This document shows positions 1,632-19,200 of a stretch of 50,685 bases of DNA, piece after piece. Under the pieces are notes generated by a model that ran no database searches, had not been told where the DNA came from, and worked only from the letters and a program-made list of their open reading frames with translations. Source of the stretch: Pseudomonadota bacterium. GTDB taxonomy: Bacteria > Pseudomonadota > Gammaproteobacteria > Burkholderiales > JAKAFK01. Each line of letters opens with the position of its first letter. Position 1 is the first letter of the stretch. Position numbers and translations under genes: made by a program. The stretch is from positions 1 to 50,685 of the forward strand of contig JAKAFK010000021.1 of NCBI GenBank assembly GCA_021817985.1, in the 5' to 3' direction.

Positions 1632-1716
1632 GCTTTCCTCTTGCTGCTCATCTGCCCGCCTGGAGCGAGAATGGCCGTTTAAATCGTTTGAGCCGAACAC
1701 ACAGAGCAAGTCGGCT

Positions 1717-2481: not shown

Positions 2482-4286
2482 TGAAGGTTCCCCCACCGCT
2501 TTCCGAGCTCCCGCTCCTCAAGGAGAATACCAAACAGAATGATTGCGTTGCCCTTCTCGGCGCTCCACTCCGCTTGCGCAAAGTGAGGCATTCCTGCCGC
2601 ATCGCACAATGGCATACCCAGGAAATTTTCCATTATCGCCAGAGGATCGAGAAGTATCGGCTCCGTAGGTTTGGAGGGATCGATGAAGCCGCGCGAATCT
2701 GCCTCCAGCTGCAGGATAAACAACGCTTTTCCCCCAATCGCGAGGATACGCGCCAAGTCGCGCATCACATAAAACGGCTGCGGCAGCATGACAATCGCTA
2801 AATCAAAGGCACCCGTCGCCGCACGAGGATCGTTACTCTGAAAAAACCTCACATTCGGATGCCCTTCTTCCACTGCCTTTGCCGATACATCATATCCCGC
2901 GGGAGAGGAGATCGGCTTCTGGTCAATAACACTAATCGACTCGGCATCAATAGGCAACAGTGTGGCGATCTGCCTGATGGACTGCCCCCACATGGCTGCG
3001 CGCCGCCAACGGAAGACATGATCTTGCACGTCACTCCCCACACCCTGAGCCGTCAACGCCGCGACCAGATCGCGCCGCGCCCGGGCCAAGGGCGGGCTGC
3101 CCGCAGCGTCCGTGAGAACGCGCGCTCCCAGCCTCATGGACACGGTGCTGGCCATGACGCACTGCCAAGGGGACGACGAGCGTTGCGCTGCAAGCACCTG
3201 CGCAGCGCGCACGATCTCATCTTCCGAGACCGACTCGGTGCATTCGGGCGTGAGCATTAGGCGCGGGCATTGGTGCAGGTATCGTGGCGTCGCAAACCAG
3301 CATGCACCGCAACGCTTGGGTAACACATTTGTGTTCGCCCCCAGAGCGAAGAACGCCGCCGGAGTCGACCCAAAGAATACGATGGAGGGCGTCCCAACCG
3401 CTCGTGCAAGATTCACGATGCCGCCTTCTGGCCCGACGTTGAGCATCGCCCCTTTGAGAATGGCTGCGGCCTCCCGTACAGAGGTCTTGCCGCGCAAGTC
3501 GATATCAACGCCTCGAATCGGCGGGTCCGCCTGCACACCCAACTGGACGAGGGGATGGCCCAGTGCTTTAAGGCGTTTGACGATCCGTTCGATCTTGGCG
3601 CGAGGCAAACATTTCGTCCACCCTCCCTCATGCAGCGGGAGCGTTTCTGCGGCATTGGAAATCGTGATGTAATCCCGTGGAAGCGCCTCGGATTTGTGGA
3701 AATCGGTTGGATCCAGCGAGACCTGGAAGTCTTCGAAACCGTCATCCGAGAATCCGGCGGTCGCCGCCATCAACGTATACAAAGAGTATCCCTGCTCGGC
3801 GGCGTGACGCCAAAGCTGGTCGTTATCGAGCGGAAAGCGGCCGAGAAACGGTAGCCACTGCGCCTGGGCTCGTTGGGCTATGTAGACGAACCGCCGTTCG
3901 TCGTCACTCAGACCCATGGTCCCGCGTGGCGTCAGCTCGTAGGTCACGACATATCGGCATTCCACTATGAGATCGATCAGCGCTCCGATTTCGGCATGTC
4001 CCCTAAGCGCTCTGTGATAGCGCGCACTGAGGCAAATGACGCCGTCTACGCTCGAAGAACCCCTGAGCAACTGCTCGGCCAATCCCGACTCATGTATAAG
4101 CACGACGGTCGATGAAGAGAACTTTTCACGAAGCTTGGCGAGCAGCGGCGTGATTTGAAGAACGTCTCCATGACTGCCCACGCCGAAGACAACGACAAGA
4201 GAGTGTCCTACTGGGCGATACGATTTCAGCGCAGCGACCGCCTCCAACACCGGCGGAGCCACTGGCTCAGGCGCGCGCGCGCTCAT
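2478..4286 (-). CDS. Glycosyltransferase family 9-like protein fused to a methyltransferase-like C-terminal domain
   Basis: 602 residues. The N-terminal part (about 30-350) is a GT-B fold like ADP-heptose:LPS heptosyltransferases (GT9): it opens with VVVFGVGSHGDVLQITPLLA, a typical first Rossmann strand and helix. Around residues 260-310 it carries MLNVGPEGGIVNLARAVGTP then IVFFGSTP, the GT9 donor-binding region. The C-terminal part (about 400-600) looks like a class I SAM methyltransferase that has lost its glycine motif; it keeps an acidic loop (ISVIDQKP) and a FDLAIVMLPQPFYVMRDLARIL stretch resembling motifs IV-VI. Substrates are unknown. Start and stop are both coupled to neighbours by ATGA overlaps (4283-4286 and 2478-2481), making this an obligate operon member between the TPR-GT and the TPR protein. 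Confidence 0.8.
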   Translation of the reverse strand: MSARAPEPVAPPVLEAVAALKSYRPVGHSLVVVFGVGSHGDVLQITPLLAKLREKFSSSTVVLIHESGLAEQLLRGSSSVDGVICLSARYHRALRGHAEIGALIDLIVECRYVVTYELTPRGTMGLSDDERRFVYIAQRAQAQWLPFLGRFPLDNDQLWRHAAEQGYSLYTLMAATAGFSDDGFEDFQVSLDPTDFHKSEALPRDYITISNAAETLPLHEGGWTKCLPRAKIERIVKRLKALGHPLVQLGVQADPPIRGVDIDLRGKTSVREAAAILKGAMLNVGPEGGIVNLARAVGTPSIVFFGSTPAAFFALGANTNVLPKRCGACWFATPRYLHQCPRLMLTPECTESVSEDEIVRAAQVLAAQRSSSPWQCVMASTVSMRLGARVLTDAAGSPPLARARRDLVAALTAQGVGSDVQDHVFRWRRAAMWGQSIRQIATLLPIDAESISVIDQKPISSPAGYDVSAKAVEEGHPNVRFFQSNDPRAATGAFDLAIVMLPQPFYVMRDLARILAIGGKALFILQLEADSRGFIDPSKPTEPILLDPLAIMENFLGMPLCDAAGMPHFAQAEWSAEKGNAIILFGILLEERELGKRWGNLQ

Positions 4287-5824
4287 CGCGCAAACTCCAG
4301 AAGCTCTTCGCGCAAGCGTGCAATTGCCGATGTCCAATCTCCGGGCGCATGCTGGCGCACCAAACGCATGTTCGGGTACCAGGGCATCTCCTCCCCCGTA
4401 CCGGGAAACAAATTTCCGCCGGAAAAGCGCATCAGCGTCCATGTCGGCAGGCCCAGTGCCGCAGCGAGATGGGCACCGGCGGTGTCTACCGATACGACGC
4501 AATCAATATTCATCATGATGGCCGACGTATCCGCGAAGTCGGTAATTTCCGGCGTCGGATCTATGCAGGTAATCCCCAAGTCCTCCGGGTCTAAAGAACC
4601 GCCCAACTGCAAGCGGACATATTCAAAAGGCGTCCCCTCAAACAAGTGTTGGAGTTCCGCGCCCGACAGGCTCCTGCTGGCCCTATCAAAGTCCGTCTGC
4701 CCCACACCGACGGCACCCGATTCCCATATGATGCCGACGCGCCACTTTCCACTACGTTCACCTAGGCGTCGGCGCCAAACCGCGATAAGCTCTGGATCAG
4801 GACGCAAGTAGGGGACCACATTGGGTATCGTATCGACCATGGTATTGAATCGCGCCGGAAAAGACATGGCCGGCAGGTGAAAATCTGCCGCGGGTAAACC
4901 GGCGCTTTTTGCACTGAACGCGTCCATTCCAGACAGATTACGGAAGAGACGTTGAAATACGTCCTCGGCCCGAAGAATCACTTCCGCATCCGGCCAGCGT
5001 TCTTTGAGCAAAGGCAGATAACGGACCATCTGGATCAGATCACCCAGGCCCTGCTCGCTCCATACCACCAAGCGTTTTCCACTCAGCGGCTCGCCACCCC
5101 ATTCGGGATATTGTTGATCGTAGGGTGCACGCCGCATTCGAAGCGGTTCCAGCAACCACCGCTCCTCATACCAACGCCACCCCTCCTGCATGCGCCCGGC
5201 CTGTAACAGCGCAATCGCATAGTTGAAAGGGAGGCTAGGGTCATAATCCGGAAACGCCAGCGCGCGCTCGTAACAGGTCAGCGCCTCGTCGAGACGCATC
5301 TGGTCCTTGTAAACGAGACCCATGTTGTTCCAGACGTCGGCGCAATCATTGCCGAGGGACAGCGATTTCTTCAGGCTGGTCTCGGCTTCCCGATATCGCC
5401 GCATCTCCCGATACACGTTACCCAGGTTGTTCATCGCTTCCCGATAATCGGGTTTGATTTCGATGGCCTCAAGTAGACACTGCTCGGCAAGCCGAAGCTC
5501 GCCCAAGACTTTCAGAAGGCTGGCGAGGTTATTCCTGATCGAGGGAGATGCATTATTCAACTGCAGCGCCTTGACATAACAGTCAAACGCTTGGGGATAA
5601 TCGCGCAACAAATGATGCTCGCGCCCCTTGGCTGCCCAGGCCTCCCAGAGACGGGGCTGCAATGACACGGCTTCCCCAAAGCTTTCCGCCGCTTGGCGAT
5701 GGTCTTTCGTTGCCGCATAGGCAGTGCCAAGGTCGAACCACGCGCTGGCATCCCCCGGAGCGCGTGCAAGCTTTCTTTTGAGCCGCCGCACAGCGTCGTG
5801 ACTCTCGGCGCTGAAATCCTTCAT
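4283..5824 (-). CDS. TPR protein with C-terminal GT-B (GT9-like) glycosyltransferase domain
   Basis: 513 residues. At least five TPR units occupy about residues 10-215 (recurrent patterns such as AWFDLGTAYAATKDHRQAAE and NNLGNVYREMRRYREAETSL). A GT-B half follows: residues 270-300 contain GKRLVVWSEQGLGDLIQMVR, the donor-side glycine loop, and the C-terminus contains CVVSVDTAGAHLAAALGLPT followed by PWYPNMRLVRQ and PGDW. This layout is that of bacterial TPR-glycosyltransferases that modify surface proteins and glycans. ATG at 5824 was chosen because AAGGG lies 5 nt upstream; a longer open frame exists but has no ribosome-binding site. It is the first gene of the four-gene operon ending at 657 and is a paralogue of the gene at 15121-16251. 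Confidence 0.88.
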   Translation of the reverse strand: MKDFSAESHDAVRRLKRKLARAPGDASAWFDLGTAYAATKDHRQAAESFGEAVSLQPRLWEAWAAKGREHHLLRDYPQAFDCYVKALQLNNASPSIRNNLASLLKVLGELRLAEQCLLEAIEIKPDYREAMNNLGNVYREMRRYREAETSLKKSLSLGNDCADVWNNMGLVYKDQMRLDEALTCYERALAFPDYDPSLPFNYAIALLQAGRMQEGWRWYEERWLLEPLRMRRAPYDQQYPEWGGEPLSGKRLVVWSEQGLGDLIQMVRYLPLLKERWPDAEVILRAEDVFQRLFRNLSGMDAFSAKSAGLPAADFHLPAMSFPARFNTMVDTIPNVVPYLRPDPELIAVWRRRLGERSGKWRVGIIWESGAVGVGQTDFDRASRSLSGAELQHLFEGTPFEYVRLQLGGSLDPEDLGITCIDPTPEITDFADTSAIMMNIDCVVSVDTAGAHLAAALGLPTWTLMRFSGGNLFPGTGEEMPWYPNMRLVRQHAPGDWTSAIARLREELLEFAR

Positions 5825-5861
5825 CCGACCCTTATTGGTTCCATCAAATTCATACTGATTT

Positions 5862-5880
5862 GCATAAGCATGAATTATGC
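5862..5880. promoter_or_regulatory. Short inverted repeat in the leader of the TPR-GT operon
   Basis: GCATAA (5862-5867) and TTATGC (5875-5880) form an inverted repeat with a 7-nt spacer, about 40 nt upstream of the ATG at 5824, in a locally AT-rich 182-bp gap. On the minus strand the repeat contains CATAAT, which could be a -10 element, but no good -35 stands 17 nt away. It may be an operator or part of an internal promoter. Confidence 0.25.
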
Positions 5881-6006
5881 CTGAAAAATCTGCATTCAAG
5901 GCCCGCGAAAGGCGGAAGACACGGTGGCGTCCTGCCGACCCGAACGGCGGATCAACGGCACTTCCTGTCGCCCGCCTTGAGCATGACGGCATGTCCTTCG
6001 AACCGG

Positions 6007-7623
6007 CTATAGCTTCGCCGCAAGCGACATCGCTGCGCGGTAGCCCTCGTCGTCAACGCTGGAGGTGATGCAAGAAAGTTCCGCCACTGCATCCAACGCA
6101 TCCATCGCTTGTTCGATGAACTTGCCTTCGTTCGCCCCGTCCTCTTGGGTCGCCAAAACAACCAGCCGCGCGCTTGCGCAGATTCGCAATGCGGCTATAG
6201 GCCGACCCCTTCGTTGGCCGCAAGCAACGGGTTGTCCGAGCTGGTAGCGCGCGTTCCCCCGATGCCCCGCTGAAAGGGGCGGCGGCAAAGCCCATTCGGC
6301 CTGCAGCAACCGGTGAATCTGTGCAGTCCGGGTGGCGTCAAGCAGCTCTTTTCGGTGACGGAGCATGAACGGATGAATAGTCGCAATTCGATCCCAGCTT
6401 GATGCACGAGAAAAAACACCACGGTCGGGCGTTGGACTCGCGACGGGCTCAAAGGATGGATCGGTGGCGAATCGATGATGAAGGCTATCCGCCAGACGGC
6501 TAAGAAAACTCGCCGCGGCAGCCTCCGGTACTTGCCGAAACGCACGAAGCTCCTCCAACGCGGCCTCCCAACGCATCAGCAGGCCAAACTTCGCCGCCCC
6601 CCCCGTAGAGCCCATGAGTGCATCGCGGGCGCACAATATAGAAGAGCCGCGTTTTTCCTTCATGGCGTTGGGCACACTATGCTCCTGAAGGCGGTGCGCC
6701 GTCGAAGCCGGGATAAGAAGCGCCCCGGAAAAACTCGGCCCAGTGACAAACTTGGACCCGGTGATCGCCACCATGAAGCCCTGCTCGAGATACGAGCGCA
6801 GCGTGTGGCTCGACATTCTGAATTGGCAGGCATCCACTAAAACGTCGACGGTGTCCGGCCACTGTTCGGCCAGCGCACATACGCAGCCCGGACTGGGGGC
6901 GATGAGGCCCGTTTTGGAGACGTCGACCGCGACGAGGAGGACGCGCCGCCGCGCTCGAACCGCACGCTCCACGGCCCCCGCAAACTCGGTGTCGATGTCG
7001 CGGGTCGGCCTGGGTGTGCCATCCGAAGCACGAACACGGATCCCCACAAGAAATTCGTCCGGTACGCCAAGCGCGTTCGGTACGCTGCGGCCCGTCTCCG
7101 AGGGCTCGATCGTGACGACCACCGGCGGTTCGGTTGCCGTCGCGCGAACCAGAGCGCTCGCCAGGGCGTGAGCGTCAGTCCCTGAGGGATTCAGCATCAC
7201 TTCGAGACCAGGCATGTCGCCAATACCTGCGAGCACGGCCACCTCGCGCCGGACACGCTCCCGCTCAACGTCGTAGACTTCTTCCCTGGGGGTATCCGCC
7301 AGACGATCCAAGAGCCGTTGATACAGCCGTTCTGCGGCAGCATAGCCGCTCGCGGAGATGACAGACGCCGTGGACGATCCCCACGCCGCCAGGTCTGAGT
7401 CCGGATAGGCGCGGCAGCCGTACCGATTCTTCCCGGTTGAATCGAGCGCGATACGTTCACCCCCTCCGCTCGTCAACAGCGTTTCCAGAGAAGGAAGTCG
7501 CCATTCCTTCGAACGACAAGGCCTCAGGCCGGCACCCGCGCCGGCGGCGCCACTGCCCCCGCGCAGTGCACGCAGGCTAAACATCGCGACTAACGCTCGC
7601 ACCCATTCGCAAGCCCCCCGCAT
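6007..7623 (-). CDS. Fold-type I PLP-dependent enzyme, function unknown
   Basis: About 538 residues; third gene of the decarboxylase/ATP-grasp group. It has the layout of aminotransferase-class-V/desulfurase-like PLP enzymes: STGKNRYGC near the N-terminus, then SSTAS as the phosphate-binding region, LNPSGTDAHALA, a DACQ stretch (D264 would pair with the PLP nitrogen) and a candidate Schiff-base lysine in ITGSKFVTGPSF (K291). The usual His-Lys of class V is replaced by Ser-Lys-Phe, so the reaction cannot be named. The N-terminus is unclear: ATG at 7623 is the first ATG, ATG at 7584 and a TTG at 7644 are alternatives, none with a clear ribosome-binding site, and the first 40 residues look non-conserved. 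The next gene upstream ends 70 bp away. It probably works on a product of the two neighbours; this is inference. Confidence 0.75.
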   Translation of the reverse strand: MRGACEWVRALVAMFSLRALRGGSGAAGAGAGLRPCRSKEWRLPSLETLLTSGGGERIALDSTGKNRYGCRAYPDSDLAAWGSSTASVISASGYAAAERLYQRLLDRLADTPREEVYDVERERVRREVAVLAGIGDMPGLEVMLNPSGTDAHALASALVRATATEPPVVVTIEPSETGRSVPNALGVPDEFLVGIRVRASDGTPRPTRDIDTEFAGAVERAVRARRRVLLVAVDVSKTGLIAPSPGCVCALAEQWPDTVDVLVDACQFRMSSHTLRSYLEQGFMVAITGSKFVTGPSFSGALLIPASTAHRLQEHSVPNAMKEKRGSSILCARDALMGSTGGAAKFGLLMRWEAALEELRAFRQVPEAAAASFLSRLADSLHHRFATDPSFEPVASPTPDRGVFSRASSWDRIATIHPFMLRHRKELLDATRTAQIHRLLQAEWALPPPLSAGHRGNARYQLGQPVACGQRRGRPIAALRICASARLVVLATQEDGANEGKFIEQAMDALDAVAELSCITSSVDDEGYRAAMSLAAKL

Positions 7624-7693
7624 AGCGAGACATCGCTGGCGCAATCATCGAACGCAAAGTCCTTCTTGAGTCCCGTCGTCCCCATACCTCCCC

Positions 7694-8950
7694 TCACGGG
7701 TGCGCGTTGCCTTGCGCCCCGGTTCCCAGCGCATGGCCGAGCATGGTGCGAAACGCGCTGAACACCCTGCGCATCTGCGCCTGCTTGTAGGGAAATAAAT
7801 CTACGGAATCCAGCGCATGAACCACCATGGAGCTGTCCACCTCAAAAATCACCAATTCGCCCTGCGGTGTCTCCCCGCAATCGATTGCGAAATAATCAAG
7901 GCCCACGCGTTCATGGATGGCGCGCAACGCCGCGTCGTGCCGGCGTCCAAACGCGTCATCGAAATGACGCATGAAGTCGCCCTCCTCCGCTCTCTTGGCT
8001 TCGCTCAGATCCATGCCGGCGTTAAGGTAGTGGATCATCCAATCCCCAGAGATCGCGAGGTGCGCGGCATAGGCACGCCCCTCGATGAGCACAATGCGGT
8101 ATTTCCGGTACAGCCCATCCGTGCTCCGATAGTCGATGAAAGGCGTTAGGTAGAACGCCTGCGACGGCTGCTCGGACAAGTAGCGGCGAACATCCTCGCG
8201 CCGTTCAGCCTTGGTGAGACCATGGCCTGCATGAGAATCGAGTGGTCGAATGATGAAAGGAAACACGCCATCGTTGGCGGCTTCTCCCCCGTTCGCCACG
8301 AGTCCCTCCAATATGGCCCGTCCGACGCGCGTCACGGCAGGAATCATGGCGCCTTGCACATCCGCCAGAAGGTTGCACACCGAGTCGCGGCCCAAACGGG
8401 CGATGGCCGATGGACGGTTGATGACCGGCCGCGGCCACGATTTCAGCCACGCATCGAGTTGCTGCAGCAACGGCAGATTTTGCTCTGACTCCCCGACGGC
8501 AACGAACACCAGATCGTGATCCGGCACAGAAGTTGGAAATGGCTCCCCAGGCTTGAGATAAAGCATTTCCAAGAGAACGTCGGAATGCTCCACCAGGAAC
8601 TCCAACGGTGCGTTGGCCATGAGGTCACCGGGCCCCATTAGCATGAGCACGCGCAGCGCGGTTGGCTGGCTCCCCTGCAAACGGTAATGCCGGGTAATGG
8701 CGAGGGCCTGTGCCTGGAGCGCTAGCGCGACATCGCGTTGTCCTCTGAACTGCAGCACGACCGACAGATCCATCAGCGCATTGGCATCCTGATCGTCGGC
8801 CGACGCGCGTGCGAGCAACTGCTGCGCCAATGGGGTCAAGTCCTCGCCCGCGAAGAGCCGGCGCATGAGCACCGCCAACCCCATCAAGGGTTGGCGGTGC
8901 GTCCCGGACGTTACATTGACTTCAAGCGGGTCAGAATTCATGGGCACCAT
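7694..8950 (-). CDS. TPR-like plus ATP-grasp (RimK/glutathione-synthetase-like) ligase
   Basis: 418 residues. Residues 1-95 form a helical TPR-like module (LAQQLLARASADDQDANALM, DVALALQAQALAI). Residues 100-175 form a pre-ATP-grasp Rossmann-like domain, beginning VLMLMGPGDLMANAPLEF. Residues 176-395 are an ATP-grasp domain: PFIIRPLDSHAGHGL holds the nucleotide-binding lysine/arginine-glycine loop, and the C-terminal DYFAIDCGE and VIFEVDSSM supply the acidic metal-binding residues. ATP-grasp ligases join a carboxylate to an amine through an acyl phosphate, so a partner decarboxylase (9000-10520) that makes an amine is chemically coherent. Start ATG 8950, with ATG 8941 as alternative; neither has a strong ribosome-binding site. 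Only 49 bp separate it from the decarboxylase. Confidence 0.85.
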   Translation of the reverse strand: MVPMNSDPLEVNVTSGTHRQPLMGLAVLMRRLFAGEDLTPLAQQLLARASADDQDANALMDLSVVLQFRGQRDVALALQAQALAITRHYRLQGSQPTALRVLMLMGPGDLMANAPLEFLVEHSDVLLEMLYLKPGEPFPTSVPDHDLVFVAVGESEQNLPLLQQLDAWLKSWPRPVINRPSAIARLGRDSVCNLLADVQGAMIPAVTRVGRAILEGLVANGGEAANDGVFPFIIRPLDSHAGHGLTKAERREDVRRYLSEQPSQAFYLTPFIDYRSTDGLYRKYRIVLIEGRAYAAHLAISGDWMIHYLNAGMDLSEAKRAEEGDFMRHFDDAFGRRHDAALRAIHERVGLDYFAIDCGETPQGELVIFEVDSSMVVHALDSVDLFPYKQAQMRRVFSAFRTMLGHALGTGAQGNAHP

Positions 8951-8999
8951 CGGTATTGTGGATTAGGCTCGCTGATTATCATTGGGGCCATGAAGGGCG

Positions 9000-10520
9000 T
9001 CAAGACTCAGACCGTGTCGACGACATGGGTGTGTGTTTCCACGCGGGGCCTGGTCCCGCTCTTGGCATAGCCCCCCGTCCCCCGCGCGTCCGCCCTGCAG
9101 CCTCCCCCATGGCAAGCGTTGTGGCCACCAGCGCATCGATATCCTCGAGCGTTGTGCGATGATTGACGATGGCTGCGCGGATCGCCAGCCGCCCATGAAT
9201 CGCCGTCGTCGAGGGGGCGCAGATGCCCGATTCCTGAAGCTCCGCGGCAATCTCCGCGTTGACCTCATCGGAATTGGCGGCACGGTAGCGGAAGCAAACG
9301 ATGTTAAGGTTGACAGGTGCAGCCAATTCCAGTTGGGACGTCGCCTCTATCCTTCGCTTGAGCTGCTGCGCGAGCTCGCATGTCCCGGATATCATGGCGC
9401 CTAGCTGTTGCGCCCCGTAGGTCTTGATCGTGAACCACGCCTTCAGGGCGCGAAAGCCGCGAGACAGATCCGGCCCGAAATCGCAAGGCCACGGCGAGCC
9501 CCCTGCCAAGCCACGTGCGTCGCGGCGCAGATATGCGGCCTGCGATGCAAACGTCCTGCGATGGAGTTCGCCATCGCGCACCAGGACAAAACCGGCGTCA
9601 TAAGGTACCTGTCCCCATTTATGGAAATCGAAGGCAATCGAATCGGCCCGCTCGATGCCCTTGAGGCGCGGGGCAATGTCGGGCGCGAGCATGCCGAGCG
9701 CGCCGCAGGCCCCATCGACATGCAGCCACAACCCCTGTGCACGGGCGATGTCCGCCAACGCGCCAAGATCGTCGATCGCACCCACATCGACGCTGCCTGC
9801 AGTGGCTGCGATGAAGAACGGACGGTACCCGGCTTGCCGATCGGCCTCAAGCTGCTGGCACAGGGCGCCGATGTCCATCTCGAAGCGCTCGTTCATGGGC
9901 ACGAGGCGCAAGCGCTCCGTCCCAAGGCCGCATAGATCCATCGCCTGCGCGATGCTCGCATGAGAGCCGGCGGACGCATACGCGAGGAGGCGCTGCCCCT
10001 CGGGCCCGAGCCCTTCCTTGCGCGCCCCCTCGCCGAGAACCGACGTGCGCGCGACAAGGAGGCCGATCAGGTTCGCCATGGACGTGCCGGTCACGAACAA
10101 GCCGCTGGCGCCTTCGGGGAAACCGAACAGATCGCGCATCCAGCGCACGATCTGCCGCTCCACCTCGACCGGCATCTGATCGCGCCCTCCGACATTGGCA
10201 TTCAGCCCGCCAGCCAGCATTTCGGCGAGCATTCCCACGGCGGTGCCCCCCCCATGCACCCAGCCCATGAAACCCGGATGGACGTTGCCTACCGCATAGG
10301 GCAACACCTTATGCATGAACGCTTCGTGCACGACCGCAAGCTCGGTGGCACGCTGGGGCAAAGGTTCGTCGAAAGCCGCGCGCACCTCATGAGGGATAGG
10401 CTGCCAAACGGGCCGCTCACGAATGTGTTCGAGGTAGTCGAAGAGGTCGTCCAGCATCCGGTGGCCTTGGGCGCGCAGTGTGCTCCAGTCCGTGGGATCG
10501 AGGGTGTGGCGAACTGTCAC
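9000..10520 (-). CDS. PLP-dependent group II amino-acid decarboxylase (aromatic-L-amino-acid/tyrosine decarboxylase type)
   Basis: 506 residues with all hallmarks of the group II decarboxylase family: N-terminal MLDDLFDYLEHIRERPVWQP, NVHPGFMGWVHGGG around residue 80, VTGTSMANL at 143-151, the PLP-stacking histidine in SAGSHAS (H187), HVDGACGA (D269) and the Schiff-base lysine in FDFHKWGQ (K301). These enzymes decarboxylate aromatic or acidic L-amino acids to amines; the substrate cannot be read from the sequence. The start is GTG at 10520. A sigma-28-like promoter lies at 10610-10636, giving a leader of roughly 80-90 nt. It heads the group with the ATP-grasp and PLP genes and follows the flagellar genes on the same strand. 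Confidence 0.92.
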   Translation of the reverse strand: MTVRHTLDPTDWSTLRAQGHRMLDDLFDYLEHIRERPVWQPIPHEVRAAFDEPLPQRATELAVVHEAFMHKVLPYAVGNVHPGFMGWVHGGGTAVGMLAEMLAGGLNANVGGRDQMPVEVERQIVRWMRDLFGFPEGASGLFVTGTSMANLIGLLVARTSVLGEGARKEGLGPEGQRLLAYASAGSHASIAQAMDLCGLGTERLRLVPMNERFEMDIGALCQQLEADRQAGYRPFFIAATAGSVDVGAIDDLGALADIARAQGLWLHVDGACGALGMLAPDIAPRLKGIERADSIAFDFHKWGQVPYDAGFVLVRDGELHRRTFASQAAYLRRDARGLAGGSPWPCDFGPDLSRGFRALKAWFTIKTYGAQQLGAMISGTCELAQQLKRRIEATSQLELAAPVNLNIVCFRYRAANSDEVNAEIAAELQESGICAPSTTAIHGRLAIRAAIVNHRTTLEDIDALVATTLAMGEAAGRTRGGRGAMPRAGPGPAWKHTPMSSTRSES

Positions 10521-10609
10521 CGGGATGGCTTTCCGTGCATGAGACGATTCTCGGGCGAACCGGCGTACCCTACGCCAACTCGTGAAACCTTTCGGGATGT
10601 GCTAGGAAT

Positions 10610-10636
10610 ATATCGGAAAACGTGGGCGAAACTTGA
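10610..10636 (-). promoter_or_regulatory. Sigma-28 (FliA)-type promoter of the decarboxylase/ATP-grasp/PLP genes
   Basis: Minus strand: TCAAGTTT (10636-10629), an 11-nt spacer, then TCCGATAT (10617-10610). The bacterial sigma-28 consensus is TAAAGTTT-N11-GCCGATAA. This site differs from the fliC promoter in this same window (TAAAGTTT-N11-TCCGATAA) at only two positions, with identical spacing. It lies in the 136-bp gap after the flhB-like gene and about 90 nt upstream of the GTG start of the decarboxylase. Confidence 0.75.
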
Positions 10637-10656
10637 AGATCCGGCTCGGCGTCGGG

Positions 10657-10938
10657 TCAGCGCCCGGCTTCTTCTGCCCCGTGCTCGACCTTATACAGCC
10701 ATGCGAGCAGTTCTGCGACCGCAACATAGAGTTGCGGCGGAATGTGTTGGTCAAGGTCGACCTGCATGAGAAGCGACACCAGTTCGGGCGACTCGTGAAC
10801 ATAGACTCCCGCGGCCCGTGCCCGCTCGATGATCGTCTCGGCGAGGATCCCGCGCCCCTTGGCCACCACCTTCGGCGCCGCCTGTCCGGCCTGGTAGGCC
10901 AGGGCTACGGCCATCTGCCGCGGATCAGGTTTCTTCAC
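10657..10938 (-). CDS. FlhB-like C-terminal domain protein (FlhX type)
   Basis: 93 residues matching only the cytoplasmic C-terminal domain of the flagellar/type III export switch protein FlhB: DPRQMAVALAYQ, then APKVVAKGRGILAETI, then YVHESPELVSLLMQVDLDQ and IPPQLYVAVAELLAWLY. The self-cleaving NPTH motif of true FlhB is replaced by DPRQ, so no autocleavage is expected. Such stand-alone proteins occur next to fliK in many beta- and gammaproteobacteria and can substitute for the cleaved FlhB C-terminus in some species. The GTG start at 10938 overlaps the fliK stop by 14 bp and has a GTGAGG-like ribosome-binding site inside fliK. Confidence 0.9.
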   Translation of the reverse strand: MKKPDPRQMAVALAYQAGQAAPKVVAKGRGILAETIIERARAAGVYVHESPELVSLLMQVDLDQHIPPQLYVAVAELLAWLYKVEHGAEEAGR

Positions 10939-12085
10939 GACGCCTCACCACCAAAGACAAAACCGGGATTCCCGCCGCCGACAACGCGCCCGCAAGCGCC
11001 GGGCTCGCCCGCTTTAGCGCCTCTGAGCTTCTGGTACCCGCCACCGACACGTCGAGTCGAACCCCTTTTGCGCCGAGTGCAATCGTCGCGTTCACCTCCC
11101 CCATCCGCGGAAGCGTCAGATTGAGATGGGTCTTCCAGGGATTCTCTTCCGAATTTTCTGGCCCATTCCCTTGGCCTCCCTCTTCCTCAATGCGCCACTG
11201 CATGGTCTGACCGGGCCACACTTGCCCCTGCCAGACGAGGGCGCGCTGGTCGAGAGCGTCGAGCTGACGCTGGACGATCGGGATCGTCGCGGGATGGGCC
11301 GGCTGGGCGTCTTTCGTCGCGGCCGCATTCACTTGGGCGCCGGCGCTCTGGGCTCCCGGACGCGCCGAAGACGTCGCCGCCCCCGGAATACCCGTGGGCG
11401 CACGCGCGGCCGGCATGCCCGCCTTGCCGCCGGCGTCCGTTTGCCCATTGGCGGCGGGCATTGGGCTGCCCGGTGGCGGCGCGCGACCCGCCGCCTGCGT
11501 CGTGGCAGGCAACTGGCCTTGGGGTTCCCTGAGCAGGTCGCTCAAGGGGCGTTCGCCGGACACCCACTGCGCCTGGTGGGATTCGTAGAAAAGCCCGCTC
11601 TCACTCAGCGCGCCGGAAAGCTTCTGCGCCAGCACCGCGGTCTCCCCGGGAGGCCCCTCGATCACCGGCGTCGCTTTCGCCGGCCCCTGCGTCGCAGCGG
11701 CTTGGTATTGGCCCATTTTCGCCAACAGCGCCCCGATGAATTTGGCCGTGGCACCCATGGAAACCTGTGAATCTCCGCCTTGGGGCACCGCGCCTTCCTG
11801 CGACAAGGCGAAGGTGAGCCGCGGCCTTGAGGAAATGAAGGTAAGATTCAGCTTCTCGCCGGGCTGGGTGTTGCGCGGGAGATTGAGGTCCAGCAAATGG
11901 TCCGCGACAAGGACCTGAAACCGCCCATTGGTGAGCGCCGCGACGACGGTGGCGTGAACGGATTGGCCGGGAACGAACTCGGCGCTCCCGCCCGGCGGGG
12001 GCGCGCTTTCCGGGACTGAGATGAGCTCTGGCGCAGAGGCCTTGACCAGGAGCTGAAGCTGGGTTTGCAGATCGCCGAATAACAT
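10925..12085 (-). CDS. fliK: Flagellar hook-length control protein FliK
   Basis: 386 residues. The N-terminal half and middle are low-complexity, rich in Ala, Pro, Gly and Gln (about residues 170-270), as expected for the ruler part of FliK. The C-terminal domain (about 290-386) has the Flg_hook pattern: MQWRIEEEG, WKTHLNLTLPRMGEVNATI, then GVRLDVSVAG and a terminal VLSLVVRRRE. FliK is secreted by the flagellar export apparatus, measures the hook and triggers the FlhB specificity switch. ATG at 12085 is preceded by GGGAAGA. It overlaps the flhB-like gene downstream, which fits their joint role in the switch. Confidence 0.93.
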   Translation of the reverse strand: MLFGDLQTQLQLLVKASAPELISVPESAPPPGGSAEFVPGQSVHATVVAALTNGRFQVLVADHLLDLNLPRNTQPGEKLNLTFISSRPRLTFALSQEGAVPQGGDSQVSMGATAKFIGALLAKMGQYQAAATQGPAKATPVIEGPPGETAVLAQKLSGALSESGLFYESHQAQWVSGERPLSDLLREPQGQLPATTQAAGRAPPPGSPMPAANGQTDAGGKAGMPAARAPTGIPGAATSSARPGAQSAGAQVNAAATKDAQPAHPATIPIVQRQLDALDQRALVWQGQVWPGQTMQWRIEEEGGQGNGPENSEENPWKTHLNLTLPRMGEVNATIALGAKGVRLDVSVAGTRSSEALKRASPALAGALSAAGIPVLSLVVRRREET

Positions 12086-12133: not shown

Positions 12134-12511
12134 TCAGGAAGAGTGCGAACGGTAGAGCGCCACGATCAGTTCCGCCTCACCCCGGGAAATTCCGCACGCT
12201 TGCGCCAGCTCCGATGCGTCGAGCCCTTGTTGCGCGAGCTCGATGGCATGATTGTACGGCGATGCGCCGTGCCCCCCGCTTTTCAGCTGGACGATGTCGG
12301 CTTCCAGCTTCCCGATATGCTCCCGCAGCTGCCTGAGCTCGGCCTCAATCGCGCCGCCGTCATGCGTCCGCGCCCCTTGGTCCGCGCGCGCATGTCCGCG
12401 TCGGCGCCGCGGTCCCACGCGCATCAGAAGAAGCATTTCGGCAATATACACGGCGAGGACCACGACCACCACGATCAGGATCTCGCGCCAAGTGACGACA
12501 AACGACTCCAC
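12134..12511 (-). CDS. DUF2802 membrane-anchored protein
   Basis: 125 residues. An N-terminal transmembrane helix (about residues 9-31, ILIVVVVVLAVYIAEML) is followed by a basic stretch, a short coiled coil (IEAELRQLREHIGKLEADIV) and a C-terminal helix-turn-helix-like segment (AIELAQQGLDASELAQACGI, then SRGEAELIVALYR). This is the DUF2802 architecture, which is regularly found beside flagellar genes in beta- and gammaproteobacteria; its function is not established. The start is GTG at 12511 without a clear ribosome-binding site. It sits between the 82-aa unknown and fliK. Confidence 0.82.
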   Translation of the reverse strand: MESFVVTWREILIVVVVVLAVYIAEMLLLMRVGPRRRRGHARADQGARTHDGGAIEAELRQLREHIGKLEADIVQLKSGGHGASPYNHAIELAQQGLDASELAQACGISRGEAELIVALYRSHSS

Positions 12512-12822: not shown

Positions 12823-13167
12823 TCATCCCGTCGTATACGCTCGCTGCAACCTCCGCCGGGTCCCTATGATACCCAGAACGTTCGACAGCTCATCCATGCG
12901 GCCACGCGCGAGAGTCGCCACCTCCCGGTCCGCCGCGAGGATCTGCCGCAATATTTTCGCCTTGCTGCGCTGAAACGCCACCGCCTCCGGCTCCGGGGAG
13001 ACGCCGCCGCTCACGTTGGCCAGTTCGCGCCTGCGCTCGATCTCCAGATCAACGAGGGTGTTCCACTGCCCGGCCCGCGCCGCTTCAAGCATCCTGTGCG
13101 TGAGCGCCAGCACGCAGGCGTACCTCGAGAGGTACGCCTCTTCTCGGCCGGCATCAGGCTTTGGCAT
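12823..13167 (-). CDS. fliT: Flagellar protein FliT
   Basis: 114 residues, almost entirely helical, like the FliD chaperone FliT: YACVLALTHRMLEAARAGQW, then LVDLEIERRRELAN, then a C-terminal helix ending IIGTRRRLQRAYTTG. FliT binds the filament cap protein FliD and, in enterobacteria, also modulates FlhDC. It overlaps the end of fliS by 14 bp, the usual order. ATG 13167 was chosen; ATG 13197 in the same frame is possible. Its client gene fliD is not in this window. Confidence 0.85.
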   Translation of the reverse strand: MPKPDAGREEAYLSRYACVLALTHRMLEAARAGQWNTLVDLEIERRRELANVSGGVSPEPEAVAFQRSKAKILRQILAADREVATLARGRMDELSNVLGIIGTRRRLQRAYTTG

Positions 13168-13600
13168 ACGCTTTCGCACTCGGGGCGGGCGCCGCATCGG
13201 TCGGCACCCCCGCCTGGGAGCGCGCGAGGATCGCCCACGCCTCCCTCAGGTCCGTCAGCAATCCCTGCACCTCGGCCAGTGCTTCCACCGCATTGGACGC
13301 GTTCGCGGCGATCAGGCGCCTTTTCATATAGTCGTACAAGGCGCCGAGATTGGCGGCGATCGCTCCCCCCTTCTCGTGGTCGATGATCCGACGCAGGCCG
13401 TCGATGATGAGTATGGCGTGCGCGATATGCTTTGCTTTACGCTCATAGTTCTTTTGAGCGATCTGCGCCTTCGCACCCGCAATGGCATCGACTGCCCCGT
13501 CATAGAGCGCGACGATCAATTGCACGGGATTCGCGCAGTTGACCGCCGTCTCCATATTGATCTGGGCATACGCCTTAATCGCCTGCTGTGCCGCGTTCAT
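13154..13600 (-). CDS. fliS: Flagellin export chaperone FliS
   Basis: 148 residues with the FliS four-helix pattern: AYAQINMETAVNCANPVQLI, VALYDGAVDAI, a central GLRRIIDHEKGG, LGALYDYMKRRLIAAN and VQGLLTDLREAWA. FliS binds the C-terminal D0 region of flagellin and prevents premature polymerisation. ATG 13600 is preceded by AGGA. A longer frame upstream (to 13699) overlaps flaG and is not FliS-like. It follows flaG by 40 bp with no fliD between. Confidence 0.95.
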   Translation of the reverse strand: MNAAQQAIKAYAQINMETAVNCANPVQLIVALYDGAVDAIAGAKAQIAQKNYERKAKHIAHAILIIDGLRRIIDHEKGGAIAANLGALYDYMKRRLIAANASNAVEALAEVQGLLTDLREAWAILARSQAGVPTDAAPAPSAKAYAKA

Positions 13601-13640
13601 GGTTCCTGTATCCTCGAGTGTTTTCGACAATCCCGCGTGC

Positions 13641-14024
13641 TTATGCCTTATGCTGCAACAGCAATCCCTTGAGTTGATCCAGGCTCTTGGCAATTTCAAT
13701 CGTTTGCTCGGGAGGAATTTGCCGGATCACCTGTTTCGTCTGGGGGTCAATCACTTTTACGACACTGATTCCCGTCGTCTTGTCCACACTGAACTGGAAA
13801 TTCAGCGAATACGACTCGACGGCCTGGTTGATTTGTGCGACCGATTGCTGGATCGCTTGCGGATCGGGCTTTCCCTGGGTGGCCGCACTCTGAGCGCTCT
13901 GTGCGCTGGCCTGAACGCCTTCGGCCGACGCCGGCCCAGCCGCAGCCTGTGGCACCGGAGTGGCGCTGCTCCCATTCGGTGCGAAATCAGCATAGGCCTG
14001 ACCACTGATTTGCTGAATGTCCAT
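13641..14024 (-). CDS. flaG: FlaG-family flagellar protein
   Basis: 127 residues. The C-terminal 65 residues are the FlaG domain: VAQINQAVESYSLNFQFSVD, then VVKVIDPQTKQVIRQIPPEQ, then a final helix. The N-terminal 60 residues are a low-complexity Ala/Gln/Ser/Pro linker. FlaG proteins are small flagellar proteins encoded next to flagellin and in some species influence filament length. The ribosome-binding site GAGGG lies 6 nt before ATG 14024. A strong stem-loop lies between it and fliC upstream. Confidence 0.92.
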   Translation of the reverse strand: MDIQQISGQAYADFAPNGSSATPVPQAAAGPASAEGVQASAQSAQSAATQGKPDPQAIQQSVAQINQAVESYSLNFQFSVDKTTGISVVKVIDPQTKQVIRQIPPEQTIEIAKSLDQLKGLLLQHKA

Positions 14025-14121: not shown

Positions 14122-14961
14122 TTAACGCAGCAGGGTGAGTGCGAGTTGCGGCAGGGCGTTGGCTTGCGCCAAGATCGCCGTACCCGCCTGCTGCAAGACC
14201 TGGTTCTTGGTAAGGTTCGCCGTTTCTGCCGCGAAGTTCGCATCCATGATCTGGCCTTGGGCTGCCGTGAGGTTCTGCACGTAGTTGGTCAGATTGGCAA
14301 CCGCCGTCTGGAAGCGGTTCTGCACCGCACCCCAGGTCGACTCATTGGTCACGACCGTGTTGATATCGCCATCGAGTGCAGAAAGCGCGGCGGACGCAGC
14401 AGCGGAACTCGAAATATTGATGGTGCCTGTCGCCGTCAAGGAGCTGGCATATGAGGCCAGCCCCGTCAGGACCGTCGAACTGAGGGCCACCTGGTTGGAG
14501 GTCACCCCGCTCGCTCCAATCTGGAACGTCAGCGTGGTGCTCGCGCTGAACAGTGCCACGCCATTGAAGTTGGTGGTCTGGATGATCTGCGAGTTTTCTT
14601 GGGTCAGCTGATCGACTTCGGCCTGCAGCTGAGATCGCTGCGTATCGGTGTAGGTTCCGTTCGCCGCCTCCACCGCAAGTGTCCGGACCGTCTGCAGGTT
14701 GTTGACCAACTGCTGCAGCGCGCCGCCTGCCGTCTGGGCCATCGAGATGCCGTTGTTGGCATTGTTGATCGCCTGATTATCGCCATTGATGACCGAGGTC
14801 ATGTCGGTCGCAACCGCAAGACCCGCAGGATCATCCGCCGCGCTGTTGATGCGCAACCCTGAAGACAGGCGCTGCAGCGAAGTCTGCAGGGAGGCCTGCG
14901 AGTTCGACAGGTTGTTCTGCGCGATCAGGGAGGCGATATTCGTATTGACATAGATAGGCAT
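14122..14961 (-). CDS. fliC: Flagellin FliC
   Basis: 279 residues, a short flagellin. The N-terminal D0/D1 part (MPIYVNTNIASLIAQNNL, LQRLSSGLRINSAADDPAGL) and the C-terminal D1/D0 part (NFAAETANLTKNQVLQQAGT, ending LPQLALTLLR) are complete. The variable centre is only about 90 residues and rich in Ser and Thr (SSTVLTGLASYASSLTATGT), which would suit O-glycosylation by the adjacent glycosyltransferases; that link is inferred. AAGGAG precedes ATG 14961 at ideal spacing, and a near-consensus sigma-28 promoter lies at 15040-15066. It is exported by the flagellar type III apparatus with FliS and forms the filament. Confidence 0.97.
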   Translation of the reverse strand: MPIYVNTNIASLIAQNNLSNSQASLQTSLQRLSSGLRINSAADDPAGLAVATDMTSVINGDNQAINNANNGISMAQTAGGALQQLVNNLQTVRTLAVEAANGTYTDTQRSQLQAEVDQLTQENSQIIQTTNFNGVALFSASTTLTFQIGASGVTSNQVALSSTVLTGLASYASSLTATGTINISSSAAASAALSALDGDINTVVTNESTWGAVQNRFQTAVANLTNYVQNLTAAQGQIMDANFAAETANLTKNQVLQQAGTAILAQANALPQLALTLLR

Positions 14962-15039: not shown

Positions 15040-15066
15040 TTATCGGAGAGCCCATCCGAAACTTTA
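15040..15066 (-). promoter_or_regulatory. fliC: Sigma-28 (FliA) promoter of fliC
   Basis: Minus strand: TAAAGTTT (15066-15059), 11-nt spacer, TCCGATAA (15047-15040). This is one base off the sigma-28 consensus TAAAGTTT-N11-GCCGATAA and lies about 80 nt upstream of the fliC start codon. Confidence 0.9.
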
Positions 15067-15120: not shown

Positions 15121-16251
15121 CTAACATCGCCTACGGCAAAGTGCCTCGGCCACTGTGCGGGCCACACCCGCCCAGTCGCCCGGCGCGGGCTGGCGGATAA
15201 GGCGCATGGACGGATACCAGGGACTGTCTTCGCGCCCGGTCAGCCAGCGCCAATCTGCCGAAAACGGCAGCAGCGTCCACACCTTGACCCCAAGCGCGCC
15301 AGCCAGATGCGTGACGGCGGAATCGACCGAGACGACGAGATCCAGATTGGCGATAGCCGCCGCAGTCTCGGCAAAATCAGGAAGGGCCGGTGCGAGGTTC
15401 TCTATGCGCGACGACAGCCCAGACGCCACCAATTCCGCGAGCGAGCGGCCCTTCTGGAGGCTATATAACTTGAGATGCGGCTCGCGCGTCAGCGCCTCAA
15501 AGTGCTTGAGCGGCACCGACCGAACAGGGTCTCTCTGGGTCCCGTTGTAGGCAGCCCATGTCAGCCCTATCTTCAGCTTGCGCGCATGACCGGCGAACCG
15601 CGTGGCCCACGCATCCACGCTCTGATAAGGCGGAACAAGGTATGCGACCGACTGGGGGATCGTCGCTAAGCTCGTCCCCAAAAGGTGGGGCAGGCTCATG
15701 AGGGGAATGTAGGCGTCGCCGGCAACCCTCGCCAGCGTATCACGTTCATATTCAACGAGCTGGTCTATCTCACTACAGCCCGCCAGCAGCCGCCCGAGGC
15801 CCGCCTGACACAAGAGCACCAACTTGCGGACATAGGGTTTTACACCCGCCAGATAGCGTACAAACTGAAGGGTATCACCCACGCTGCCTTCGGCGACCGC
15901 CAGAAGGGTACCCGCAAGCGGGGAGCCGTCCCAGCGCGCAACCCCGGCGAGCGCATCTTGCCATGGACGGGCATGCGGTCTCCATTCGAGCTCAGCGAAC
16001 CCCTCCCTGAGCCTCCCCGCGCGCAGCCATGCCTTCGCGCGACCCCAATGGGCGTCCGGAGAGTCGGGGGCCAACTGCAAGGCCCGATCGAAGCAGGCCA
16101 GCGCCTTCTCGTCATCCCCTGCCGCCTGCAAGATGGCGCCCAGCGAAGTGATGACATCAGAATTGTCTGGATCATGGGCCAATCGCTGCAGGCACGATGC
16201 TATAGCAGCAGCCGATCCAGCCAATGGGTCCAGTGGGACCGCGCCACTCAT
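15121..16251 (-). CDS. TPR protein with GT-B (GT9-like) glycosyltransferase domain
   Basis: 376 residues. Two TPR units at about residues 20-85 (TSLGAILQAAGDDEKALACF) are followed by a GT-B domain: LLAVAEGSVGDTLQFVRYLA matches the donor-side loop and LDLVVSVDSAVTHLAGALGV with PWYPSMRLIRQPAPGDW the C-terminal half. It is a shorter paralogue of the protein at 4283-5824. Located directly upstream of fliC and 14 bp after the giant glycosyltransferase, it very likely takes part in flagellin glycosylation. ATG 16251 was chosen because AAGGTG sits 4 nt upstream; the longer frame to 16293 would run into the upstream gene. Confidence 0.88.
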   Translation of the reverse strand: MSGAVPLDPLAGSAAAIASCLQRLAHDPDNSDVITSLGAILQAAGDDEKALACFDRALQLAPDSPDAHWGRAKAWLRAGRLREGFAELEWRPHARPWQDALAGVARWDGSPLAGTLLAVAEGSVGDTLQFVRYLAGVKPYVRKLVLLCQAGLGRLLAGCSEIDQLVEYERDTLARVAGDAYIPLMSLPHLLGTSLATIPQSVAYLVPPYQSVDAWATRFAGHARKLKIGLTWAAYNGTQRDPVRSVPLKHFEALTREPHLKLYSLQKGRSLAELVASGLSSRIENLAPALPDFAETAAAIANLDLVVSVDSAVTHLAGALGVKVWTLLPFSADWRWLTGREDSPWYPSMRLIRQPAPGDWAGVARTVAEALCRRRC

Positions 16252-16265
16252 GCCGCACCTTATGG

Positions 16266-19200
16266 TTATGCCTTCACGAGGGCCTGAAGCCATTCATCAA
16301 GATAGTCTTCAAGAATGTAGTGCTTCAGCACCCACTCCCTTAGGGCATCTCCGCGCCGCGCGGCCGCCTCTGGATCCCTGACCTGTTCCCGGATGGCTTC
16401 GATCCAGGCGTCCGGATCGTTGGGCACCCGTGTAACGGGCGCATTATTCGTTCGATAGGGAAAGACATCCGTGCAGACTACCGGCCAGCCCAGAATACCG
16501 TACTCCAGCAGGCGCAGGTTGCTCTTTGCCTCGTTGAATGGATTGACTTCCAACGGTGCGATGGCGACATCGAGATTCAGGCGCGCCAGAGCCTCCGGGT
16601 ATTCGTTGATCGGCACGCCCTCATGGAACTCGGTCAGATGAGGGCTGATCTTGTCGGTGGCCATGCCCATGAAGACCCATTCGACTTCGCCCGCGAGGGC
16701 CGCCACGACAGGTTCGATAATCTCCAGATCGCCTTGGTGTTGCTGGGCGCCTGCCCAACCCACGCGGGGCCGCCGGCCCGCCCGCCTTCGGGAGGTCAGA
16801 TGGATCCATTTATCGCGTTCTAGCCGATTGGGCACGATGCGAACATCCCCGATCATGCCCTCTGCGAGATTCGCCAGCGGCTCGGTGCTCACAACGAGCC
16901 TGTCGCAGGATCGCAGCCCGCTGCGAAGCCTCGGCTTCGCGTCCCGGAAGCCTTTCATGTAGTCTCGATAGACATTGCTCTTTTTGGGTACCAGGGTAAC
17001 CAGATCGTCGAGCAGGTACACCTTCAGAATATCCTTCGTGCATCTGCGATAAGATTCCAGGGCCGCGATTTGCGCATCGTCCAGGGCCGCATGGAGCACC
17101 AGCGTATCGGGTGCCAAGCGAGCGAGTTCCGTGAGCGTCAAGACGCGAGTCAGCCGATTCGCCATCCGGACGTATTCGCACTGTGCCCAGCCGGCCTTGC
17201 TCAACGCACCGAAGGGCTGAATGACCCGGTAATCGCCGCTGCCTCCGGGCAGCGGAACGCCATAGATCCGCGGCCTGTCATGGAAATGAGGATCCCAATT
17301 CAGGACGGCGTCGGCCTCGGCCCGCCAATCACGGCAGACAAGGCTCAGGTGCCGGTTGTACGCCGGGTCATGCGCGAGTTGCGGCAGCCACTTGTCGTAC
17401 ATCAAATCCTGTTCCTGCTTATACTGCAGGAGATGCTTGGCTTGCTGCGCGATGTCCCGCAGATCCGTCTTCTGGGTGATCGACTCGTGGTGCACGAGGG
17501 TCGCATACGGCGTCCAGACGATCTTGTAGCCCGCCTCGCGCACCTTGAGACAATAGTCAACATCGTTATAGCGGTTCCTAAGCCCTTCCGCATCCAGACC
17601 GCCCATTGCCCCGTAAAGGCTCTTCCGCGTAAGCAGGCACGCGCCCGTTACGGCAGAGAAATTCTGATCAATCTGAAGCCGATTCATATAGCCGGCATTG
17701 GCCAATTCTTCGCCCGCGCCCGGATGCTCGGCAACACCGCCAAGGCCCAGGACGACGCCCGCGTGCTGAATCTTTCCGCTTTCGGGGTAGATAAGGCGCG
17801 CTCCGACCACGCCCACCTCGGGGCGCTGGGCATGGGACATCATGCGGTCGAGCCACTCCCCCTGCAACACCTGCGTATCGTTGTTCAGCAGCAGAAGATA
17901 TTCCCCCCTCGCTGCCTGGGCGGCCGCGTTGCAGATCGCGGAGAAATTGAAGGGATGGTCGTACGTCACGATGCGCACCCTGTCAGCGTGACGTGCCTCA
18001 ACCGCCGCCAAATACTCCAGGGCGTCCGGGTCCTCGCTCTGGTTGTCAACGATGATCAACTCGTAGTTAGGATACGTCGTCTTGCCGACCACGCTTTCGA
18101 CACATGGCTCCAGAAACTCCAGCTTGTCCTTGGTCGGTACGATGATGGATACGAGCGGCTGATCGGCATGCCGATAGACGATGCGGTGCGTCAAGGGCAG
18201 CAGTCCGGCCTGGACTTCAGCCTCTATGCCGTTCCTTTCCAAGTGAGCGGCGAGCGCACGGCGCGCGGCATCCTCGCCGGGAGCGGCCGCTCCCTCAGGC
18301 GCATGATAAAGAATCTCGGCGATATGGCCTATCGCCGCCTCTGCGCTCCGGTCAAGGACGCGCAGCGCCAAGTCATAGGCCCGGGCATCGGCAAGCAAAG
18401 GTTCCGATTCCACTTCGCCGAACACATCACCGCGCACCAGACACACATCGCCCATATAGGGCATCGCCCGGAGCATATCCAGATTGAAGTCGGGCTTGAA
18501 CACAGGGTTCGTCCGCTCGCCGAAATTCCCCGCGACGTCATGATCCGTATAGATGAAACGCCAGTCCGGACGAACGTTGATATAGTCCACGCACGCGAAC
18601 AACATGTGGGGCTCAAGCCGGATGCCGGGCGTGATCAGTCCAACCCAATGCCCTGAGAGCCCTTCAAAGGCAGCGTCCACGACCGTGGACAAGCCCCCCT
18701 CTGCCGAGCGCTGCACCCATTTGAGAAGCGGTATCTGATCGAAAAGCGCACCCGGCGAGCCGAAATCGGCCACGACCACCAAGCGCCAGTTGTCATACAA
18801 CTGCCCTGCGAGGCTATCGATGGTGTCGGCCAGCAAAGACTCCTCCCCGGAGCGCAGAGCCATCACCAGGACGACAGTCGGTCGCTGGGTCCATTTGAGC
18901 ACCATGCGCTCGGCAAAGAGCTGACCCTCAATTTCCCTCAGCGCATGCCGTTTCAGCCAGCTCGCATAGGCCTCCTTGCGGACCGCTTGGACGGGATCCG
19001 CGTCGGACTCCATCTCCGGTTGCGGCTGATCGGCCCCACCGCTCGAAAGCCGCGCGAGAATCTGGGCACGCCCGCGCGAGATCTCCGCATTGTCCGGGAC
19101 CGGGTATTGCTGATAGATCCTGCGGTAGGTGTCAAGAAACTTTCCGCTCTCGCGCCGGAGCATGTTGTCATGCTGGTTGACGCGCTGGTGCACTTCGACG

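Follow-up and report, generated by a model that had tools for sequence, protein, structure and literature searches.

Organization of the locus

The window, by which we mean the whole stretch of 50,685 nucleotides that was analyzed, harbors a block of flagellar genes followed on the same strand by genes for three enzymes, which we call DEC, ATPG and PLP2, and by genes for glycosyltransferases and a methyltransferase. In the direction of transcription the features are:

21631-21657, minus strand, sigma-28 type promoter of the large glycosyltransferase gene (pattern match), boxes identical in the congener
16266-21503, minus strand, multi-domain family-2 glycosyltransferase (domain search)
15121-16293, minus strand, second TPR plus glycosyltransferase-9-like protein (domain search)
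15040-15066, minus strand, sigma-28 promoter of fliC (pattern match)
14122-14960, minus strand, flagellin gene fliC
13641-14024, minus strand, flaG (Pfam)
13154-13699, minus strand, fliS open reading frame, true start probably internal (Pfam)
12823-13197, minus strand, fliT (Pfam)
12134-12511, minus strand, DUF2802 protein of the flagellar cluster (Pfam)
10925-12085, minus strand, fliK
10657-10938, minus strand, FlhB C-terminal-domain protein (FlhX), ending 20 nt before the DEC promoter element
10610-10636, minus strand, sigma-28 (FliA) type promoter of the DEC operon, TCAAGTTT-N11-TCCGATAT (pattern match, genome-wide rank, congener copy)
9000-10520, minus strand, DEC, group II PLP-dependent amino acid decarboxylase (PF00282) with a GTG start (Pfam, structure matches)
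7694-8950, minus strand, ATPG, N-terminal TPR-like helices and an ATP-grasp ligase fold (structure prediction, Foldseek)
6007-7644, minus strand, PLP2, fold-type-I PLP enzyme outside the Pfam families (structure prediction, Foldseek)
4283-5992, minus strand, TPR plus glycosyltransferase-9-like protein with a weak glycosyltransferase match and an FlmG-type domain layout (domain search)
2478-4502, minus strand, glycosyltransferase-9 (heptosyltransferase-like) protein (domain search)
1717-2496, minus strand, protein with one weak TPR match (domain search)
657-1781, minus strand, FkbM-family methyltransferase (domain search)

The position of the multi-domain glycosyltransferase gene (16266-21503) makes a role in filament glycosylation probable. 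Its promoter-like site is a second sigma-28 type site before a non-structural gene, and flagellin glycosylation beside fliC is probably under FliA control.

Predicted enzymes of the operon

DEC matches PF00282 with an E-value of 3.1e-67 over positions 43-413 and is homologous over nearly its full length to the group II decarboxylases, with DOPA, tryptophan, DfoJ lysine and diaminobutyrate decarboxylases as the closest solved structures. The HK lysine, the HVDGA motif and tyrosine 330, which we take to be the catalytic residues of the family, are invariant in eight aligned rows. The named decarboxylase classes are nevertheless distant: all six NCBIfam models that matched (DABA, PanP, MfnA, histidine, tyrosine and glutamate) stayed far below their cut-offs, and the score for RhbB, for example, was 193.9 bits vs. 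a cut-off of 900.

The structural model of ATPG (mean pLDDT 86.5) has D-Ala-D-Ala ligases as top Foldseek matches, with LysX/ArgX among them. In sequence searches the protein gave no Pfam ATP-grasp match, weak Pfam matches to TPR and a RimK-family match far below cut-off. RimK, LysX and the D-Ala-D-Ala ligases share the predicted ATP-grasp fold and are the best Foldseek and sequence matches, whereas ATPG is set apart from them by very weak sequence similarity and by its own N-terminal TPR-like segment. The motifs RPxxxHAG and FE are invariant in 12 aligned rows, and an acidic residue stands two places past the E in 10 of them. By analogy, these motifs may represent the glycine loop and the acidic metal site of a putatively active ligase.

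PLP2 has no Pfam match, and a profile search against PDB sequences gave nothing meaningful; its fold came from the structure search, in which the model (mean pLDDT 76.2) matched decarboxylases, SHMT and NifS-like proteins. The motifs VDACQFR and TGSKF are invariant in eight aligned rows. The ATP-grasp and PLP labels that an earlier reading of this DNA without database searches (the sequence-only reading) had given to these proteins hold as predicted folds, although they are hardly recognizable from sequence.

A sigma-28 type element upstream of DEC

Promoters of the sigma-28 (FliA) type carry boxes resembling TAAA(GTTT)-N11-GCCGATAA at the correct spacing before a gene. Positions 10636 to 10610 on the minus strand read TCAAGTTT-CGCCCACGTTT-TCCGATAT, with a spacer of N11, and the -10 box lies 89 nt before the GTG start of DEC. 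Compared with the fliC element TAAAGTTT-N11-TCCGATAA (15066 to 15040) there are two mismatches, 14 of the 16 box bases being the same, which agrees with the earlier description of an element about 90 nt before the decarboxylase with fliC-like spacing and bases. The GTG start is also found at the equivalent place in the congener and in two further relatives. In both congeners this start is overlapped by a short open reading frame (ATG CAC GGA AAG CCA TCC CGG TGA, 10517-10540, minus strand), which may serve translational coupling or just hold the ribosome-binding site.

Such sites are rare in the window. Three were found with at most three mismatches to the fliC element, vs. a mean of 0.04 in 100 shuffled sequences; the third, with two mismatches, is located at 21657 to 21631 and precedes the 1745-residue glycosyltransferase ORF. 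First-order resampling of the 136-nt gap between flhX and DEC produced a site with at most two mismatches in 3 of 20,000 trials (P about 1.5e-4). The whole assembly (3.97 Mb, 184 contigs) yielded 16 sites, four with at most two mismatches and 12 with three. Those four precede fliC, the flgM-flgN operon (identity checked with Pfam), the large glycosyltransferase gene and DEC. The reversed pattern gave eight sites with at most three mismatches, so the weaker, three-mismatch members of the set of 16 are frequently chance matches. The genomes of the window and of the congener both encode FliA (TIGR02479, above cut-off).

Conservation within the genus

The congener (G001) shares the gene order large glycosyltransferase, fliC, flhX, DEC-ATPG-PLP2, TPR-glycosyltransferase and next glycosyltransferase. 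Its DEC element occupies the same place, with 16/16 box positions and 7/11 spacer positions identical. Between the -10 box and the DEC start 80 of 91 alignment columns are identical, and the DEC genes share 87% of their DNA sequence. Six sites are conserved in the genus (those of DEC, fliC, flgM, a CheV-like gene, the large glycosyltransferase and an MCP gene), and together they show no box differences at 96 positions vs. 20 spacer differences at 66, a count that is partly circular since the sites were picked by pattern. Three weaker pairs outside this count, of doubtful function (argA-like, C178 and C68b), keep their boxes too, with 0, 0 and 1 differences, and so bring out this circularity. 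The rank of the DEC element among the four best sites of the assembly, the presence of fliA and the box conservation in the congener support the promoter reading well, and by these sequence features the element is a real promoter-like element.

Two further observations concern the same pair of genomes. A site TCTAATTT-N11-TCCGATAA (G000:C16:19372-19398, L006) lies 21 nt before an N-acetylglutamate-synthase-like gene and is kept in the congener (L062); it is possibly a chance match. A regulatory RNA in the 5' leader of DEC, suggested by about 80 nt that are identical between the congeners (about 63 of them in the leader), was dropped as a candidate because comparable identical runs occur in DEC (67 nt), fliK (50 nt) and fliC (88 nt) and because the two leaders fold differently.

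Occurrence of the element beyond the genus

When the 350 nt upstream of DEC were scanned for the strict N11 form, scores of at least 21 came from 2 of 87 loci, both belonging to the genus (the window and the congener), and this outcome is the strongest one against a conserved promoter. The sequence-only reading had proposed a search for the same 8-N11-8 element in homologous loci and had named its absence from relatives with the same genes as an outcome that would speak against it. A looser, position-restricted analysis softens this result but does not remove the lack of the element in relatives. It was based on 77 non-redundant DEC upstream regions, obtained from 94 by removal of 17 that shared 22-mers, the congener's region included. 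In an unbiased 6-mer count CCGATA, the core of the -10 box, ranks first at -115 to -50 (10 loci vs. 1.2 expected). A sigma-28 score of at least 20 with N11 or N12 spacing was reached in 5/77 loci vs. 0/77 in each of six controls (reversed motif, opposite strand, distal region and three resamplings), corresponding to p=5e-5 vs. the six controls pooled and p=0.06 vs. any single one; the settings of this test and of the 6-mer count were fixed once the data had been seen. The five positives are the window, a genome of the same order (G037) and three Acidobacteriota (two Bryobacterales MAGs and one Sulfopaludibacter MAG). The window has N11 spacing; the other four have N12, a form first spotted by eye in three Bryobacterales loci and tested afterwards.

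In Bryobacterales genomes (L121, L123, L128; G300-G303) sites resembling TAAAGTTT-N12-GCCGATAR are in excess; their spacing exceeds the usual N11 by one base. The pattern occurs 16, 18, 37 and 16 times in four genomes vs. 7, 7, 16 and 4 for the reversed control, and in a fifth Acidobacteriota genome once vs. 0. Ten N12 sites were inspected in Bryobacterales and six downstream proteins were run through Pfam, which identified two MCPs, one CheA-like protein, one response regulator and one histidine kinase, with one protein unmatched. In three of the Acidobacteriota genomes searched, strong N11 candidate sites also lie some 0.8 kb ahead of the flagellin match.

Other promoter patterns were scored alongside the strict N11 scan. 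Sigma-54 scores of at least 13 were found in 21/87 DEC upstreams vs. 3/87 for the reversed motif, and in 20/113 ATPG upstreams, which lie mostly inside coding sequence, vs. 6/113. Sigma-28 sites on the opposite strand reached a score of at least 21 in 14/87 loci (vs. 1/87). Ten of these 14, facing away from DEC, stand directly before flgM (five) or flaG (five), and in those loci the site marks the neighboring gene and not DEC.

Distribution of the cassette and linkage to flagellar genes

Relatives of ATPG are encoded in at least 573 stretches in a scan of species genomes. Among the best 80 of these loci, many on short contigs, clustering of ORFs placed DEC in 66, PLP2 in 49 and both in 44; named genera in this set include Duganella, Janthinobacterium, Methylobacter, Derxia and Undibacterium. 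Judged from this co-occurrence of genes, DEC, ATPG and PLP2 form a conserved cassette. Members of 15 flagellar families are present in 33 of the best 80 loci, and in 27/45 of those of at least 18 kb.

Since these 80 loci are the window's nearest relatives, a separate sample of carriers was taken across the order, drawn from 300 evenly sampled genomes. ATPG was detected at E<=1e-30 in 51 of the 300 genomes, 49 of which encode flagellin. Among the 48 strong carriers (E<=1e-100), 47 have flagellin (PF00669) vs. 158 of the 252 other genomes (Fisher p=1e-7, computed without phylogenetic correction); the exception, G196, is a 96%-complete MAG with no flagellin match. Thirty-one of the strong carriers supplied 34 loci, three of them giving two loci each. 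The other strong carriers comprise 11 genomes inspected before and six, mostly on short contigs, outside the linkage count. A flagellar gene was present in 10/34 carrier loci vs. 1/40 control windows (p=0.002), the latter being 20-kb pieces picked at spaced steps in six carrier genomes, away from the cassette and its surroundings. The remaining 24/34 loci had no member of the 15 flagellar families, nor did 8 of ten carrier loci fetched earlier besides the window, the other two being linked. The neighborhoods and the co-occurrence with flagellin support the tie between these enzymes and the flagellum that the sequence-only reading had drawn.

A DEC tree of 60 rows requires at least 14 changes of the flagellar-neighbor label, vs. 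a mean of 19.9 after shuffling, and its well-supported branches alone force six. The linkage has accordingly been acquired or lost on repeated occasions, whether beside filament, basal-body or flg genes. Among the linked rows 26/33 belong to the filament class, some assigned by an FlhB-type match alone.

Several divergent arrangements were observed. Longer TPR-ATP-grasp paralogues are encoded upstream of flhB/flhA/flhF/fliA-like genes in G034:C7 (L048:6052-8550 and 9721-11352), where the labels were given by eye and tblastn matched the FlhB part alone. Another paralogue, at G000:C177, lies in an 18-kb stretch in which the tested flagellar proteins had no match. G034:C8 (L042:6090-7250 and 7824-9059) contains a back-to-back pair of divergent ATPG copies with PLP2 after one of them, and a decarboxylase match is absent from the 18-kb stretch.

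Comparison with known systems

The closest precedent is the sfmABCDE operon for flagellin modification in Shewanella oneidensis. A FliA site is predicted 57 bp ahead of this operon, whose products are NeuB-like, TPP-dependent, reductase, methyltransferase and ATP-grasp proteins, the last gene specifying an ATP-grasp_4 protein (PMC3765264). Its loss shifts the mass of flagellin, and the cluster is needed for a fully functional filament and motility. Like the DEC operon, sfmABCDE combines small-molecule enzymes, an ATP-grasp protein and a predicted FliA site, and the view of the sequence-only reading that enzymes of small-molecule chemistry are not known in FliA regulons therefore fails. Ligase-type enzymes under a FliA-type promoter are, on that account, already precedented; the gene content here is different. 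The main text on sfmABCDE contains no mention of a decarboxylase or of pyridoxal, unlike the DEC and PLP2 content of the present operon, and SfmE, as an ATP-grasp_4 protein, is distinguished by its domain description from ATPG with its lack of a Pfam ATP-grasp match.

A second comparison concerns the Caulobacter flagellin O-glycosyltransferase FlmG, in which an N-terminal TPR domain that binds flagellins precedes a C-terminal glycosyltransferase domain (PMC7591256). The protein encoded at 4283-5992 shares this layout, the likeness being one of domain layout alone. ATPG is unlike FlmG in that its TPR segment is fused to an ATP-grasp domain and not to a glycosyltransferase.

A literature search, to which most subscription papers were inaccessible, returned no paper joining flagellin modification, ATP-grasp and a decarboxylase. 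It likewise returned nothing on a flagellar gene cluster with a pyridoxal-dependent decarboxylase, or on ATP-grasp, tetratricopeptide, pyridoxal and flagella together.

Proposed function

We propose, with a probability of roughly 0.6, that a working FliA promoter places the DEC-ATPG-PLP2 operon in the last flagellar class as an operon for filament modification. FliA (sigma-28) would transcribe the DEC-led operon alongside fliC in the last class of flagellar expression. DEC would convert an amino acid to an amine, and ATPG, docked via its TPR segment, would use ATP to form an amide between an amine (or, in the reversed arrangement, an acid) and its target; the docking argument draws on FlmG, whose TPR domain binds flagellins (PMC7591256). 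PLP2 would produce or remodel one of the substrates. A glycan may be built or attached by the products of the genes that follow, the TPR-glycosyltransferase, the glycosyltransferase and the FkbM methyltransferase. The sequences themselves show the promoter match and how rare it is in the genome, the conserved boxes in the congener, the predicted folds, the conserved cassette, its linkage to flagellar genes and its co-occurrence with flagellin. We infer that FliA is used, that the genes are transcribed together, which reactions take place and in what order, what PLP2 contributes, and that flagellin or its glycan is modified. A more specific form of the proposal is put forward tentatively and is doubtful in itself: an undescribed class of modification, turned on together with the filament genes in hundreds of Proteobacteria and some Acidobacteriota, in which a TPR-ATP-grasp enzyme that docks on flagellin would attach an amine derived from an amino acid, by an amide bond, to the flagellin or to its glycan. 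The sequence-only reading had likewise suggested an amine- or amide-forming pathway; its flagellar tie is supported, and the amine or amide part is deduced from the enzyme folds.

The operon may instead be controlled by FliA and serve a product other than a filament modification, for example a polyamine- or peptide-like metabolite for chemotaxis, surface behavior or envelope chemistry in motile cells. FliA regulons do hold non-structural genes, the CheV-like and MCP genes with genus-conserved sites being examples here, and the majority of carrier loci do not adjoin flagellar genes. The filament is nevertheless indicated by the genes that follow (for the TPR-glycosyltransferase, the glycosyltransferase and FkbM), by the neighboring fliC, fliK and flhX and by the predominance of the filament class among linked rows, even with some of these classed by the FlhB-type match alone, and we consider such a product unlikely, if the most serious of the alternatives.

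Transcription of DEC could also come from read-through of the fliC-to-flhX transcript, or from another promoter, with the sigma-28 element adding little. The named genes from fliC through DEC all share one strand, DEC being preceded by the 136-nt gap, and a search of the minus strand of this gap revealed no terminator-like site, so read-through could occur and the sigma-28 promoter could be redundant. The box conservation in the congener and the position-specific enrichment of CCGATA in other species argue against this explanation, which we regard as improbable. That the element is a chance resemblance and not a promoter is very improbable: the 16 sites vs. eight for the reversed pattern mark weaker matches as frequently due to chance, and most relatives lack the element, but its probability in the gap, its rank in the top four of the assembly and the conserved boxes all speak for a promoter.

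The proposed filament-modification operon thus retains the promoter reading and the flagellar link of the sequence-only reading, whereas the element does not extend to most relatives with the genes and the supposed lack of a precedent was not borne out. The main known modifications of flagellin are glycosylation, with nonulosonic acids or other sugars, and lysine methylation. If the proposal is true, a widespread and apparently unstudied three-enzyme cassette of amine- and amide-forming folds, linked to flagella through its promoter, its gene neighborhoods and its co-occurrence, would lead to new filament chemistry, and hundreds of proteins that carry no family name would gain a role. There is a credible chance that the DEC operon represents such chemistry, and the results suggest that decoration of the flagellum via a pathway that is not yet described may occur in many swimming bacteria.
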